The notes below the pieces were generated by a model. That model worked only from the letters and a program-made list of their open reading frames with translations. It was not told the origin of the DNA and searched no databases. 64,000 nucleotides of DNA from an uncultured Fodinibius sp. (GTDB lineage Bacteria; Bacteroidota; Rhodothermia; Balneolales; Balneolaceae): the NCBI GenBank assembly GCA_913056455.1, contig CAJXMJ010000001.1, forward strand, positions 930,001 to 994,000, in the 5' to 3' direction. Shown piece by piece: positions 17,180-24,762 of this stretch. Both the position numbers and the translations under genes were made by a program. Each line of letters begins with the position of its first letter. Within the stretch, counting starts at the first letter, position 1.

Positions 17180-18514
17180 ATGAACATAGCAGTAATAGGG
17201 ACGGGATATGTGGGGCTGGTCAGCGGGACCTGTTTCGCCGATTCCGGCAACCACGTAACATGTGTCGACATTGATGAAGAGAAAGTAGAACAGCTTAGAG
17301 AAGGGCAGATCCCGATTTACGAGCCCGGCCTGGAGACCATCTTCGCCCGCAGCCAGCGGGAGGGGCGCCTGCAGTTCACCACGGATATCGGGGAGGCGGT
17401 GCCTGATGCTGATATTGTTTTTCTATGCCTGCCGACCCCGCCCGGCGGCGACGGACAGGCCGACTTGAGTGCGGTCATGAAGGTGGCCTCCGACCTCGGT
17501 CCGCTCATCAGCGATTACACCGTAATTGTCAATAAATCGACTGTGCCCGTCGGCACCGGCGACCGCGTGGAAGAGGCGATCAGCAAAAATGTGGACCCCG
17601 ACCTGTTTGATGTGGTCTCGAACCCGGAGTTCCTGCGCGAGGGAGCGGCCGTCGAAGATTTCAAGTACCCCGAACGCGTGGTGATCGGTACGGGCAGCGA
17701 GGAGGCCGCCGAGATCATGACGACCCTCTATGAGCCGTTTGTTCGCTCCGGCAATCCCATTATCGTGATGGACCGCCGCAGCGCGGAGCTCACCAAGTAT
17801 GCCGCCAACGCGATGCTGGCCACCAAGATCACCTTTATGAACGAAATAGCCAATATCTGCGAGAAAGTCGGCGCCAACGTTGACAATATTCGCCGCGGCA
17901 TCGGCACCGACTCGCGCATCGGCAAGCGCTTCCTGTTTGCCGGCATCGGCTATGGCGGGAGCTGCTTCCCCAAAGACGTGCAAGCCATCCACCACACCGC
18001 CGGCCAGCACGGCTACGACTTTAAAATTGTGGATTCGGTGATGCAGGTGAACAACGCCCAGAAGGTCTCCATTGTCAAGAAGATGGAGGAGTATTTTGGC
18101 ACCGACGACTTCAGCGGCATGACCTTCGGCATGTGGGGGCTGTCCTTTAAGCCGGAAACCGACGACATCCGCGAGGCGCCGGCCTTGTACATCGCCGAAG
18201 AACTCGTCAAACGTGGAGCGAACCTGCTGGCCTATGATCCCGAGGCGATCGGGACCTTCAAGCAAGCGACCACCCAAGCGGTGCTTGATAACACAACCTT
18301 CGTCCACGACCAGCAAGCGGCCCTCAACGATATTGACGCGCTGGTGATCTGCACCGAATGGAACGAGTTTCGTCGTCCAACGGTCGATAATTTTGCCGAT
18401 GAGATGAAGGACCCGGTCATTTTTGACGGCCGCAACCTCTACGACCTCAAACGAGCCGAAAAAGCAGGCATAACCTATATCAGTGTGGGGAGGCCTTCAA
18501 TAAATGTCAACTAA
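17180..18514 (+). CDS. ugd: UDP-glucose 6-dehydrogenase, GC-rich insert-like gene
   Basis: Oxidises UDP-glucose to UDP-glucuronate with two NAD+. It is 444 residues: Rossmann start [23 protein letters not shown]-type [16 protein letters not shown], catalytic Cys in [13 protein letters not shown] (about 260) and the C-terminal [17 protein letters not shown]. Base use is unlike both neighbours: the 60 bases 17341-17400 hold 43 G+C, while 18601-18660 in the next gene hold 26. The first 40 and last 20 codons look native, so the middle may have been exchanged with a GC-rich donor copy. It overlaps the decarboxylase gene by 11 nt; the pair makes UDP-glucuronate and then UDP-xylose. Confidence 0.96.
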
Positions 18515-19465: not shown

Positions 19466-19912
19466 ATGAAATGCCTCGTTGACGTGTATCCGTACCAAAA
19501 GGAACAAGACGAGGTTGAATTTCTGGTTTTTAAACGAGATACCGATGTGCAATATGCCCACCAATGGCGAATGATAGGCGGAAAAGTTGACCCTGAGGAA
19601 ACCCATTATGAAGCAGCCCTTAGAGAATTGAATGAAGAAACGGGTCTTTTACCCGATCTTTTGTGGACGATTCCGTCAGTGAATCACTTTTATGATCACA
19701 AGAGTGATCATATTTCCCTCATCCCAGCTTTTGGTGCTAAAATAAATAAAGAGCAGAATATCACGTTAAATCATGAACATGTTTGTTGGAAATGGATTTC
19801 ACAAGATGAATTGGATACCTATATTCAATGGCCGGAACAGAAACGACTAATGAAGTTATTAGCTGATATTGTAATAACTAAACAAATTTTAAACGAGTGG
19901 ATAGTCGAATAG
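19466..19912 (+). CDS. NUDIX hydrolase
   Basis: A 148-residue NUDIX protein with a complete box GGKVDPEETHYEAALRELNE + ETGL (about 38-61), matching GX5EX7REUXEEXGU. It has no extra domain. The N-terminal CLVDVYPYQKEQDEVEFLVF and later HVCWKWISQDEL resemble the branch that includes dihydroneopterin triphosphate diphosphatase, but the substrate is not certain. It is 14 nt after the decarboxylase gene, and its last codons overlap the start of the barrel gene by 16 nt, so all are probably in one transcript. Confidence 0.9.
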   Translation: MKCLVDVYPYQKEQDEVEFLVFKRDTDVQYAHQWRMIGGKVDPEETHYEAALRELNEETGLLPDLLWTIPSVNHFYDHKSDHISLIPAFGAKINKEQNITLNHEHVCWKWISQDELDTYIQWPEQKRLMKLLADIVITKQILNEWIVE

Positions 19913-21144
19913 CAAAATCGTTTTATTGTTTTATAACACTTCTATTGGTTTTTGTAATAGGTGGTATTTCTATTCCAAATGCATTGCATGCCCAAGATAA
20001 TAGTTCTTCCTATGAGCTATTGCCAGCACCTGACGTGTGGTATAACAGTGTGGACGGTGTTCGCGTAGGTATACGACTCCGGGGACAAGTGCCTGGAACT
20101 TTTGGTGACGGACCACATCGCTTGAATACCGGACTATGGCTTGGTACCAACTTTCCCGATAATCCTATTTCATATTATCTAAAATATACTGAACCAATTC
20201 CGGCTATTTCGGATTTTGGGAGTGAAGGAAGTATTTCTGCAATAACATCTTATCGTACCGGATTTCAGGCACATGGGCTGACCTTTAACAAACGTTGGCA
20301 AACCGGTTTTAATGAGTTGAATTACAAGGAGTTAGCAATCGGAGTAAGGGGGGAGCACCGTTTTAATGAAGAATACCTGTTGTATCAACAACTGTGGCAA
20401 ACTCAGTGGTTATATTTGGCAAATGCCGCTTTTGATTATACAGATGTAAATTCATTAGGTAGATACCTTCTTTCTCTTTCGATTGATGCAAATATTGCGG
20501 GTAATGCTGATCCGTTTTTCAGGAGTGAAGTCATTATTAGCCAAAAAGCAGACCTTTCAGACCAGTTTTCGATTTCGGGTCGATTGTACTCTGGCTTTGC
20601 TACTGATAATACGGCCCCGGAGTATTTGTTTACTCATGGGTTTCAATCAGCTCGGAGTTGGATGAAAAGTGGACTTACAAGAGCACGAGGTACGATACCG
20701 CCTTCTTGGATGCAAATTGGTAATATTCAGGTTACCGGCGGTCCAAATCTGCGAGGTTATCTAAAAAATGACATCCGGTCATTAAATAATGGAGGGATGC
20801 CTCTTTACACTTCAATATCAGCTCTTAACCTTGAATTGGATTACCCCAATCCGTTGGATCAAGGCCTTAAAAAAATCCCGGTAATTGGTGGTCTCATAGA
20901 TCTTCGTTCCTATTTATTTTGGGATTCCGGAACATCACTTGGACTAACGAGTATTGAAGAAAACAATATCTTGTCTGATGCCGGACTCGGTTTTTTATTA
21001 TCGATTAATATTCCTGATTATCTTGGCAAATCACGCGGATTAGTTTTACGTTACGATATGCCTTTCTGGCTCTCGCATCCCGGTGCAGAGAATGCATTTA
21101 AGTTTCGGCAGGTATTTGGCATAGGAGCTACAATTTCACTTTAA
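19897..21144 (+). CDS. Omp85-like outer-membrane beta barrel without POTRA domains
   Basis: A 415-residue exported protein that starts at GTG inside the NUDIX gene. Its signal peptide ends LHAQDN (about 32). The remaining 380 or so residues alternate amphipathic strands throughout, about the size of one 16-strand barrel, with no room for POTRA repeats. The segment GGPNLRGYLKNDIRS (about 285-299) recalls the L6 RGY/RGF motif of Omp85 proteins, and the tail has the DAGLGFLLSI and RYDMPFWLS strands common near the end of such barrels. The likely group is the short 'noNterm' Omp85 branch. It is followed after 6 nt by a lipoprotein gene, a likely partner. Confidence 0.5.
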   Translation: MDSRIAKSFYCFITLLLVFVIGGISIPNALHAQDNSSSYELLPAPDVWYNSVDGVRVGIRLRGQVPGTFGDGPHRLNTGLWLGTNFPDNPISYYLKYTEPIPAISDFGSEGSISAITSYRTGFQAHGLTFNKRWQTGFNELNYKELAIGVRGEHRFNEEYLLYQQLWQTQWLYLANAAFDYTDVNSLGRYLLSLSIDANIAGNADPFFRSEVIISQKADLSDQFSISGRLYSGFATDNTAPEYLFTHGFQSARSWMKSGLTRARGTIPPSWMQIGNIQVTGGPNLRGYLKNDIRSLNNGGMPLYTSISALNLELDYPNPLDQGLKKIPVIGGLIDLRSYLFWDSGTSLGLTSIEENNILSDAGLGFLLSINIPDYLGKSRGLVLRYDMPFWLSHPGAENAFKFRQVFGIGATISL

Positions 21145-21150
21145 TAACTG

Positions 21151-22905
21151 TTGAGAACGATACAATACATACTGTTAGCTACTTTTTTACTTTCTTTTTT
21201 GGGATCCTGTACCAGTGCTCGATGGACTGTCAAAGAAAAAAAATCCATTGATAGATCTGAGTATGAAATTGTTGAAGAAAATTTCTTCTTACAACAAAGT
21301 AATGACGTAAGCCCTGAAAACCCGGTCTTGTCGTTAGCACTCTTCTCTGAAACTGAATATGAATATACCCAGCGTGTATTAATGCAGCGTACTATTCAGG
21401 ATTATAAGCTCCGAGCAGGAACAGTGGCATTAGGTATTGGGGGCGCTGCCATGGCTTTTTATCTGGCCAATGTTGCTGATTTTGGGAGTCATTCATCAAC
21501 GACCAAGAGATGGACGCTAAACGGGATGGGAGCCCTTATACTTGCATCAGGTTTTTTGAACATGAAACCTGTGGGCGAACCTCGTCCGACAGGAGAGGAG
21601 CGATACAAAAGAGCTACCGGTACTACTATTAAAAAAGATACCGTTAAAACTGATGCTAAAATTGATACTTCTGCATCGGTGTACATGCTATATAACGATC
21701 TAATTATTTTTGAGGAGACGAATCAGGATATTAACAATGGAGTACTTAATGTTCCGATTGGAAATGCGCTGAGTGATTTAAAACTGTCCGGTCAAAATCC
21801 AGGAAATACAACAGTAGAGGTACTATTTGCTGATTCACTATACAGATATAATTATGCTGTAGACTCCGTTTTACAACCCTATGCGGTTATCAATAAACAA
21901 CTTACAGCATTGCGTAATAGTCCCCAGCAAAATTCTGATAACGTACTTGCAGATCTTGTTGAAGGGAGCCAACTCAAGATTAGTAGTATCACTGAAGACT
22001 GGTATCAAGTAATGTATGGGATCTCAGAAACGTATATTAAAAAGTCAGATGCCAGTATTATATGGCGATCAGAAGACTATGAGGTCGAAGACCAGGTTGT
22101 GGTTGTTCCACGCGTTCCTTTTGGGGAGATTGATGTCGAAAGCAATATCCCAATCCTGCGTAATGATAATCCCAATGCAAAGGCGCTGTTGCTGATAAAC
22201 CAAAATTACGCCGATACCCTTGGCGAACGCAACTATTCGCTGCGTGACGGACGTCTAATGCGTTCCTATTTGCAAAATGCATTGGGTTACTCTGAAGACA
22301 ATATATATCAATTAGCTGATATTAGTAGTACTGACAGTCTTAATACGCTGATTTCTTCTTTGCAATCAACAGCCAATGATAGCACCGAATTATTTATATA
22401 CATCAGTGGATATGGGACTGTCGATAAAGAACAGCAAAAGCTGCACTTTTTGCCGGTATCTTCCGACATGGAATCCGATTCCACAATAGCATTATCTGAT
22501 TTGTTTGGTCAAATAGGGAATATTCCATCTGAACATACAGTAGTCTTAAGTGACATTGACTTTGTAAGAAGTAGTAAGAACGGATCAATGTCTGAAAATG
22601 AAATGCGAAATATTATCGAAAACAATGTTTCGCCGTTGTTAATACAAAATACCAATAACTCGGTATTGTTGGGAACACAGCTAAATAATCCATCCCGTTT
22701 ATATATGTCAGAGGAGGGAGAGGACAAAAAGCACCACATTTTCCCATACTTTTTTGCAAAGGCGTTGCAAGAACGCAAAACTACTCTTTCGGATATTTAT
22801 CAATATCTCGAACGGAATGTATCTTATACCTCACGTAAGCTTTTTGATCGCCCGCAGGATCCATTACTTCTCGGCAATACCCAATTGAATTTAGCCGGAC
22901 AATAA
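21151..22905 (+). CDS. Lipoprotein with SH3-like domain and degenerate caspase-like domain
   Basis: A 584-residue protein starting at TTG with lipobox FLGSC (Cys20) and a short hydrophobic segment near 90-110. An SH3-type region lies at about 265-305 (ADLVEGSQLKISSITEDWY). From about 345 the order is that of a caspase/C14 fold: ALLLINQNYADTLGERNYSL, DGRLMRSYLQNALGYSEDNI, then ELFIYISGYGTVD, where the catalytic His of SGHG is Tyr, and TVVLSDIDFVRS, where the usual D-A/S-C Cys is absent. The peptidase site therefore looks dead. It is 6 nt after the barrel gene and its stop overlaps the next ATG (TAATG). Function is unknown; a scaffold or sensor is inference. Confidence 0.6.
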   Translation: MRTIQYILLATFLLSFLGSCTSARWTVKEKKSIDRSEYEIVEENFFLQQSNDVSPENPVLSLALFSETEYEYTQRVLMQRTIQDYKLRAGTVALGIGGAAMAFYLANVADFGSHSSTTKRWTLNGMGALILASGFLNMKPVGEPRPTGEERYKRATGTTIKKDTVKTDAKIDTSASVYMLYNDLIIFEETNQDINNGVLNVPIGNALSDLKLSGQNPGNTTVEVLFADSLYRYNYAVDSVLQPYAVINKQLTALRNSPQQNSDNVLADLVEGSQLKISSITEDWYQVMYGISETYIKKSDASIIWRSEDYEVEDQVVVVPRVPFGEIDVESNIPILRNDNPNAKALLLINQNYADTLGERNYSLRDGRLMRSYLQNALGYSEDNIYQLADISSTDSLNTLISSLQSTANDSTELFIYISGYGTVDKEQQKLHFLPVSSDMESDSTIALSDLFGQIGNIPSEHTVVLSDIDFVRSSKNGSMSENEMRNIIENNVSPLLIQNTNNSVLLGTQLNNPSRLYMSEEGEDKKHHIFPYFFAKALQERKTTLSDIYQYLERNVSYTSRKLFDRPQDPLLLGNTQLNLAGQ

Positions 22906-23762
22906 TGGCGTACCTGTTTTTGATTTTAAGCTCGGTATGTTCACTTACGATTGCCCATCTGCTTAAAGTCACTGAGACAAAAAATTTGCGCACCCTCAAT
23001 ACACTCACGGTCAATTATATAGTGGCGGCGATTTTTGCCTTCCTTGTAGGATACGAGAGCAATACAGGATCTGCTTTTGTTAGCTATTCTGCGATTCTTT
23101 TCATGTTTTGCATAATCGTCGGAGCCTTTTTCATTGGTAATTTTGTAGCATATAGTAAGTCAGTCCACACTAACGGGGTGGGAATTACCATTGCCGCCAT
23201 GCGATTGTCTTTACTGATTCCGGTCGTAATCTCAATATATTGGTATGCCGAATACTTAAGTGGACTTAAAATTGTGGGCATTCTTGGAGTATTTGGGGCG
23301 ATGCTGTTACTCATCCCCAAAAAGAATCATATTAAAATTGGTTCTATCAGTGCTTCCTGGCTGTTAATTTTAATCTTTGTCTTATCCGGTTTTGCTGATG
23401 CTTCGCTTAAAATCTACGAAGAAGAATTTAGTTCAAACCTCAATGAGCTTACCTTCATGGGATTAGTCTTCTTGGGAGCTTTCATTATTGGATTGATTGT
23501 TGCCTTATTGCGAAAGGGGCCGCTCGTTACTAAAAAAGAGGCCCTTCTGGGAGCAGCTATTGGAATTCCTAACTTATATTCCTCAATCTTTTTAATTTAT
23601 GCCTTGGGCGGCATCAGTGGTTCAGTAGCTTATCCAATAGTTAATATCTTAAATGTATTGGGCGGTACGTTTCTCGGATTAATTATTTGGAATGACCAAG
23701 TATCAACCAAGCAATGGATGGGCATTTCTATGGCCGTTATTGCAATTTTACTTTTGATATAA
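22905..23762 (+). CDS. EamA/DMT family transporter
   Basis: A 285-residue membrane protein with about ten helices arranged as two repeats of five, the drug/metabolite transporter fold. Visible features are the N-terminal [16 protein letters not shown] helix, [20 protein letters not shown] in the first repeat and [19 protein letters not shown] followed by W near the end of the second. The substrate is not predictable. Its ATG overlaps the previous stop codon by one base, so it is translationally coupled to the caspase-like lipoprotein gene. Confidence 0.85.
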
Positions 23763-23772
23763 TTCTGAAGTC

Positions 23773-24762
23773 ATGGACGTAAAGATTATTCAACAGATAC
23801 GAGACCGAGCTTCAAAAAAGAATAAAACCATTGTCTTCCCCGAAGCTCGGGATCAAAGAGTGCTAAGAGCCGCCGCATATTTAGTCAAGAAAAATATTTG
23901 CGATATCAGGCTCTTAGGTAATAAACAGGAAATTCTTTCATCTGTTAATAAAAAGGAAGAAAAAGAGAGTGTAGCAGAATTATCAAGTTACTTTGTGGAT
24001 GGAGGTGAAAATCGGAAAGTACTTGCTGAGCATTTATATGAAAGGAGAAAACACAAAGGAGTATCACGAGAAGAGGCTATAGCAAAACTGAAAGATCCAC
24101 TTTACCTGGGAGCTCTCTTGGTGGCAACGGGCGCTGCCGACGGTTGTGTGGCCGGATCAATAGCAACTACCGGCGATGTGATTCGAGCCGCGATCCACAG
24201 TATAGGACTCAGAAAGGGAAATAATACCGTATCAAGCACTTTTTTGATGGCGCTTAAAAATCAGCCTGCGCTAACCTATGCCGACTGTGGGGTCGTCCCA
24301 TATCCTGAAGCCGAACAACTCGCTGATATTGCCATAGAATCGGCCCGAACACATGAGTTATTAACTCAAAAAACTCCCAAGATAGCAATGCTTTCTTTTT
24401 CAACTAAGGGCAGTGCGCAACACGATCGTACATCATTAGTCGTAGAAGCTACGAAAATTGTCAGGCAGAAAGCATCAAATTTAACTATTGACGGCGAACT
24501 TCAATTTGATGCGGCCTTTGTCCCCGAGGTAGCACAGCGAAAAGCTCCGGATTCACCCTTAAAAGGAGAGGCCAATGTGCTTATTTTTCCCAACCTTGAT
24601 GCTGGAAATATTGCTTATAAAATTACAGAACGACTCGCAGGGGCCTCAGCTACCGGTCCAATCCTACAAGGTCTTGCGAGGCCCATGATGGATCTCTCCC
24701 GAGGATGTGGTTGGCAGGATATCGTAAATGCCGCCTGTGTAGCTATACTGATGGAAAAATAA
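23773..24762 (+). CDS. pta: Phosphate acetyltransferase
   Basis: Interconverts acetyl-CoA and acetyl phosphate. It is 329 residues, the short single-domain form without the N-terminal DRTGG part. Typical segments are [19 protein letters not shown] (about 19-37), [19 protein letters not shown] (about 115-133), [14 protein letters not shown] and [19 protein letters not shown] followed by [18 protein letters not shown]. It starts 10 nt after the EamA gene and ends in a stem-loop. No acetate kinase is adjacent. Confidence 0.94.

Follow-up and report, generated by a model that had tools for sequence, protein, structure and literature searches.

A lipid-anchored pseudoprotease of the caspase fold and an outer-membrane barrel of the Omp85 type without a POTRA domain are encoded side by side in the genome of an uncultured Fodinibius species (Balneolaceae, Balneolales, Bacteroidota), and our reading, held with middling confidence, is that of a binding pseudoprotease and an independently acting barrel that belong to one conserved, probably co-transcribed gene string. 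The stretch analysed, in the following the window, comprises 64,000 nucleotides of contig CAJXMJ010000001.1 (assembly GCA_913056455.1, positions 930,001 to 994,000, forward strand), and coordinates are those of the window. The hosts are salt-loving bacteria. Both folds are recovered in computed models, the caspase domain has lost its catalytic dyad while the acids of its pocket are kept, purifying selection is evident, the neighbourhood is conserved across the order, and each gene is lost without the other; a standing complex of the two proteins is not required by these data.

19897..21144, plus strand: POTRA-less Omp85-fold outer-membrane barrel, 415 amino acids, GTG start (AlphaFold2; Foldseek and VIA matches to TamA, BamA and Sam50; present in 80 of 98 related genomes)
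21151..22905, plus strand: pseudocaspase lipoprotein, 584 amino acids, TTG start (open reading frame, lipobox, Pfam, structure model)

The two open reading frames, 6 nucleotides apart, stand where a preceding sequence-only reading had placed them, and orthologues begin at the same two start positions, with ATG.

Folds and architecture of the two proteins

As to the barrel, the AlphaFold2 model, built from the 37 sequences of the family alignment (predicted local distance difference test 86, predicted template modelling score, pTM, 0.80), has 16 long strands, the first of them starting at residue 40. All of the 50 Foldseek matches listed are to TamA, BamA or Sam50 (best E 2.5e-10), and the 50 matches listed by VIA are likewise Omp85-type barrels throughout, with Sam50 at Z 20.6 (root-mean-square deviation, rmsd, 4.0 over 300 residues) and the BamA of F. 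johnsoniae at Z 19.6. Three features of the sequence can be placed on the model:

19897..19992, plus strand: signal peptide, about residues 1-32 (helix predicted for 3-24, linker of low confidence at 29-33, strand 1 from residue 40; sequence)
20749..20760, plus strand: LRGY (residues 285-288), the Omp85 loop-6 motif, in the long loop that joins strands 11 and 12 (Arg286 invariant, 37/37)
20917..20925, plus strand: F341-W-D343, an Omp85 motif of the FxDxG type (F341 and D343 invariant, 37/37)

As only the signal peptide precedes the first strand in the model, no space is left for a POTRA domain, and none is found; the 16-strand fold, the two motifs and the structure matches together thus identify an Omp85-type barrel without POTRA, as the sequence-only reading had proposed. 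The fold, loop 6 with its invariant Arg and the FxDxG Asp are common to BamA, TamA and Sam50 (Z 17-20.6), from which the window barrel, known here from predicted fold and sequence, differs in lacking POTRA and in matching their profiles weakly. Sequence profiles recognize the family poorly: no Pfam or NCBIfam model matches the barrel, the Pfam Omp85 profile PF01103, with hits allowed up to E 1, matches none of the 37 members, and a sequence comparison with solved structures returned nothing meaningful. Outside the order, the closest kin of the barrel are found at the C-terminal end of Peptidase_M1 proteins of 1009-1083 amino acids (hhalign probability 100, E 6e-46), homologous in the barrel and different in their length and in the N-terminal peptidase part, matched by PF01433. 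These fused barrels bridge the family to its better known kin: they match a TamA-like set in profile-profile comparison at 95% probability, the combined profile of the family and the fused barrels recovers, at 92%, short Omp85 proteins without POTRA from within the order, and the family profile alone, weak against the BamA- and TamA-like sets, becomes stronger once the fused barrels are included. We thus see a new POTRA-less subfamily of the Omp85 fold, unseen by Pfam profiles and linked to M1-peptidase-fused barrels. The fusions occur in Bacteroidota outside as well as inside the order (L115:2107-5358, L117:1704-4955, L116:1894-5115, L122:2758-5787), and no description of them was found in the papers searched. 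The window's genome also encodes at least two more short Omp85 proteins that do match PF01103, in frames of 432 and 384 amino acids with little room for POTRA (G000:C6:20378-21235, G000:C2:215013-215888).

The literature on POTRA-less Omp85 proteins consists mainly of one survey (Heinz and Lithgow, 2014; PMC4104836), in which 'noNterm' proteins are proposed to serve in membrane-protein biogenesis. The window barrel is likewise an Omp85 barrel with an RGY/F loop motif and a signal peptide and nothing more, and as modelled it belongs structurally with the Omp85 proteins that lack an N-terminal extension. It differs in going unrecognized by PF01103 or any other Pfam family, and, while noNterm barrels are said to resemble the 'Metallo' group of Omp85, its nearest relatives are the M1-fusion barrels, the noNterm group being compared here by its description. 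The barrel would most likely act on outer-membrane proteins or in export by way of its own barrel seam, i.e., in the manner of an insertase.

As to the lipoprotein, its alignment comprises 45 relatives from families f1, f2, f3, and f5 of one order, and its architecture is as follows:

21199..21210, plus strand: lipobox LGSC with the putative lipidation Cys20 (invariant, 45/45)
21214..21414, plus strand: two very long predicted strands (residues 22-49 and 60-87) that would form a stalk (structure model; a third strand, 138-166, follows the helical hairpin)
21415..21558, plus strand: hairpin of two Gly/Ala-rich helices, 89-107 and 117-136 (of moderate hydrophobicity in 45/45 members)
21898..22068, plus strand: bacterial SH3-like domain, residues 250-306 (SH3_4 E 0.014; SH3_3 in 12 relatives, best 5e-7)
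22159..22902, plus strand: caspase-fold domain, p20 and p10, residues 337-584 (Peptidase_C14 E 3.7e-6; VIA Z 21.6)

Next to the lipid anchor, residues 20-170 are predicted to form three strands of about 28 residues each and the hairpin (window 21214-21648, residues 22-166), and the latter might enter the membrane. An Ig-like part, assigned from predicted strands only, follows, succeeded by the SH3-like and the caspase domains; the relative orientation of the domains is not fixed by the model (pTM 0.52). Fold searches gave no identification for residues 20-250, the matches being dominated by the caspase domain. The assignment of the latter is clear. Peptidase_C14 (PF00656) matches the window protein above its curated cut-off and 30 of the 45 members; the VIA match is to Arabidopsis metacaspase 4 (218 residues superposed at an rmsd of 2.9, lipoprotein residues 342-584); and nearly all of the Foldseek matches listed are to MALT1, metacaspases, or caspases. 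By sequence, the sole match among solved structures, below threshold, is again metacaspase-4, and a search with the single protein retrieves five relatives, all Fodinibius or Aliifodinibius, with up to 83% identity. The lipoprotein character and the caspase fold claimed in the sequence-only reading are thus borne out, and the SH3 domain it named is weak in the window protein itself and clearer in the relatives. Judging from the sequence, the protein is presumably periplasmic; the long stalk would hold the caspase domain off the membrane, and the SH3 domain would possibly position it.

A lost dyad and retained pocket acids

Four residues define the state of the caspase domain, the dyad sites being placed by alignment with relatives outside the family that keep GHG and DAC:

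22411..22413, plus strand: Tyr421, in the position of the catalytic His (45 members: Y 29, F 6, H 4, others 6)
22558..22560, plus strand: Asp470, in the position of the catalytic Cys (45 members: D 35, E 6, S 2, I 1, M 1, no Cys)
22246..22248, plus strand: Asp366, the likely counterpart of Asp95 in TbMC2, first Asp of the S1 pocket (35/45 Asp; PMC6426788)
22552..22554, plus strand: Asp468, the likely counterpart of Asp211 in TbMC2, second Asp of the S1 pocket (44/45 Asp, one Glu; PMC6426788)

The catalytic Cys is absent from all 45 members, with Asp or Glu in its place in 41 of them, and an aromatic residue occupies the His site in 35. The four members that retain His all belong to family f3 (L067, L073, L078, L079) and combine GHA or GHG with Asp at the Cys site, a pattern that, as far as the alignment goes, suggests that loss of the Cys came first. 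The dyad is intact in no close homologue, and its loss, already claimed in the sequence-only reading, holds against the GHG/DAC relatives. In p10, Arg562 and Gln569 are invariant, and a similar R...Q.P stretch is found in active relatives. In TbMC2, Asp95 and Asp211 hold the basic P1 side chain, and these acids are retained in known pseudo-orthocaspases (PMC6426788); Asp366 and Asp468 are assigned to the pocket from their alignment position, not from pocket geometry. An active orthocaspase is recognized by its His-Cys dyad, and no member has Cys at 470 and only 4/45 have His at 421. A pseudo-orthocaspase is recognized by the p20 fold, a substituted dyad and an acidic S1 pocket, and all three are present here, the pocket by position (Asp468 in 44/45, Asp366 in 35/45). 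The family fits this definition; what is new in it is the residue combination, the architecture, and the taxonomic range.

Conservation is far above chance (omega ~0.07-0.09), and the caspase domain taken separately, compared between three close species whose synonymous sites are nearly saturated, gives an omega of 0.085-0.098. Decay into a pseudogene is rejected by these values and by frames that are open across the order. A missing dyad, pocket acids that are largely kept, and purifying selection together point to a retained binding module rather than to a relic: the caspase domain appears to be maintained without its dyad, and its predicted pocket could still bind. With an acidic pocket kept for a basic (Arg or Lys) side chain and the dyad lost, the pseudocaspase would most likely bind a peptide or a protein tail without cleaving it.

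Known pseudo-orthocaspases (the YS, YN, and other variants; PMC6426788), including SyOC of Synechocystis (PMC7889975), share with the window family the p20 fold, a replaced dyad, commonly with Tyr at the His site, and the retained acidic pocket. The window family differs in having Asp or Glu in place of Cys, in its lipoprotein architecture with stalk and SH3, and in being distributed across a whole order of a Bacteroidota lineage. One survey recorded 10 pseudo-variants among 1078 sequences in the Bacteroidota lineage (PMC6426788), and an order-wide, membrane-anchored family with a new dyad replacement (Tyr/Phe plus Asp/Glu) thus appears in a lineage where such pseudo-enzymes have been thought rare. 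No literature linking Balneolota with caspases was found. Active exported C14 proteins of Bacteroidota (for example L081, L123, L124, L126) carry a homologous caspase domain (residues ~327-580, E down to 1e-41), but with GHG/DAC intact and with other companions, namely CARDB, PEGA, and YCF48-like. One of them, L081, is encoded by the window's own genome (G000:C3:3555-6135, or L081:556-3135) and is among the closest outside relatives of the pseudocaspase; it is an exported protein of 859 amino acids with YCF48-like repeats, CARDB and an intact caspase domain. Very few such active relatives exist in the order.

One gene string, separate losses

The two genes are part of a longer string, with three more members in the window:

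19466..19912, plus strand: NUDIX hydrolase gene, upstream member of the string (Pfam NUDIX E 1.4e-16; synteny; its last 16 nucleotides are shared with the start of the barrel gene)
22905..23762, plus strand: EamA/DMT-family transporter (Pfam EamA E 1.6e-11; its start overlaps the pseudocaspase stop by 1 nucleotide)
23773..24762, plus strand: phosphate acetyltransferase, pta (sequence reading; conserved downstream gene and end of the conserved string)

The general order is greA-(ugd-uxs)-nudix-barrel-(ackA)-pseudocaspase-DMT-pta, with barrel and pseudocaspase on the same strand and in the same order in about 60 loci. They are adjacent in 26 of these, have ackA between them in 27, and lie about 4 kb apart in six, five of genus g28 and one of g32. 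In one genome of each of these groups, G071 (g28) and G078 (g32), the place of ackA is taken by two genes, an inverted one for an MFS transporter and one that is acetyl-CoA-synthetase-like, both assigned from sequence reading and not from profiles; the replacement is located at L085:3779-7441 and L079:3597-7157 in the two groups. The pseudocaspase and DMT genes are often spaced by -1 or -4 nucleotides, as tightly as pseudocaspase and barrel, and overlaps in the string (often -1, -4, -10, or about -20 nucleotides) are retained order-wide although sequence identity is low, which points to selection for co-expression. The two envelope genes are probably transcribed together with housekeeping and acetate-metabolism genes.

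Two genome samples inform on presence and absence. Among the 98 related genomes, of which 80 encode the barrel, 75 encode the lipoprotein. In the class sample, with about 97 genomes of the order and about 99 outside it, both are found in 77 of the former, the barrel only in nine, the pseudocaspase only in seven and neither in four, the absences being confirmed by profile searches at relaxed thresholds. The nine are family f4, including the single-contig genome G066 of 4.3 Mb, plus one incomplete f1 genome; the seven are from genus g5 and from g29, plus one g27 genome whose match is truncated at a contig end. Overall, the barrel is lost and the pseudocaspase kept in g5, g29, and g30. The gaps can be seen in place: in g5 the barrel is gone from between nudix and ackA, and in G013 and G075 the pseudocaspase is gone from between barrel and DMT. 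In the genomes outside the order neither family is found; what matches there does so weakly and belongs either to other caspase domains or to the C-terminal part of proteins that are much longer. With each gene lost alone in whole clades, an obligate two-component pair is rejected, and the one-protein lineages offer natural tests of each protein alone, including of the capacities of an Omp85 barrel that lacks POTRA. A role in defence is also rejected, as neither protein matched PADLOC at E up to 0.1.

Co-evolution was addressed by a mirror-tree test on simple distances from 31 genomes with six string genes, in which partial correlations control for four neighbouring genes and are compared with 500 permutations. 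Without such control, the distances of barrel and pseudocaspase correlate at 0.50, less than those of the pseudocaspase and any other string gene, and once the neighbours are controlled for nothing specific is left between the two in these genomes (partial r 0.021, with 198 of 500 permutations as high). The partial correlations of pseudocaspase and pta (0.64), barrel and DMT (0.45), and pseudocaspase and DMT (0.37) were unmatched in 500 permutations. Pair-specific co-evolution thus finds no support in this test, and the pseudocaspase tracks pta and DMT instead.

The first alternative to independent action is that the pseudocaspase is a dedicated accessory of the barrel, i.e., a gate, plug or substrate receptor that substitutes for POTRA as the BAM lipoproteins and POTRAs serve BamA. 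The constancy of strand and order in about 60 loci, with direct adjacency in 26 and persistence where ackA is replaced, agrees with such a role, a POTRA-less barrel would depend on a receptor of some kind in the periplasm, and the fusion of related barrels to a soluble peptidase domain makes a split partner of hydrolase fold conceivable. We nevertheless consider it unlikely, though deserving of attention, as f4 keeps the barrel alone and g5, g29, and g30 the pseudocaspase alone, the partial correlation of divergence is 0.02, ackA intervenes in 27 loci and the DMT gene lies equally close. A more specific version, in which the dead caspase would serve as a separate lipid-anchored periplasmic receptor that presents basic-tailed clients to the barrel in place of POTRA, strikes us as improbable. 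Of the coupled pair proposed in the sequence-only reading, the conserved neighbourhood and the order-wide recurrence of the pair therefore stand, while the functional couple does not find support here, given the longer, mostly metabolic string, the equally close DMT gene, the intervening ackA, the separate losses, and the partial correlation; roles as partners in gating, scaffolding or sensing are conceivable. Both proteins belong to known protein kinds and are real and conserved. As that reading had surmised, our literature search found no description of the pair, subscription journals being mostly outside its coverage.

Some of the evidence also speaks against independent action. About 60 loci keep both genes on one strand and in one order, and genus g28 as well as G078 of g32 keep the shared locus despite the insert; this retention is some evidence for a shared role. 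The mirror-tree test, with its 31 genomes and simple distances, is crude and could overlook a real interaction, and peptide binding by the pseudocaspase is suggested by residue conservation only. At the other extreme, the shared locus may reflect operon inheritance and nothing else, with no functional link among the barrel, the pseudocaspase and the acetate genes. The greA, ugd, uxs, nudix, DMT transporter and pta genes have no evident common pathway, and genes exit the string singly, as did ackA in the window's genome, where it is on another contig. Tight overlaps retained across the order at low identity make this a doubtful explanation.

Two further alternatives concern the caspase site. 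Tyr421, Asp/Glu470, and Asp468 (D-x-D/E in 40/45 members) could form a re-purposed hydrolase or metal-binding site, and the acidic Cys site and aromatic His site are indeed more uniform than random loss would leave them; yet the flanking residues vary, combinations such as H/D, S/E, A/D, K/D, Q/D, and I/D exist, and to our knowledge no known caspase-fold enzyme uses such a Tyr-Asp/Glu pair, so that we give this very little credence. That the pseudocaspase regulates an active caspase paralogue, compare c-FLIP and caspase-8, is suggested by the presence of L081 in the window's genome, but is disfavoured to the point of being hardly credible, as a high-scoring paralogue is found in only 3 of the sampled genomes of the order (G000, G053, G382), versus 84 with the pseudocaspase.

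Two minor observations concern the string and its surroundings. In G023 the barrel gene is tandemly duplicated (L091:4766-7454), and the second copy has diverged. Upstream in the window, a 297-codon frame on the minus strand (17423-18316), antisense to the UDP-glucose dehydrogenase gene, is probably a shadow frame.

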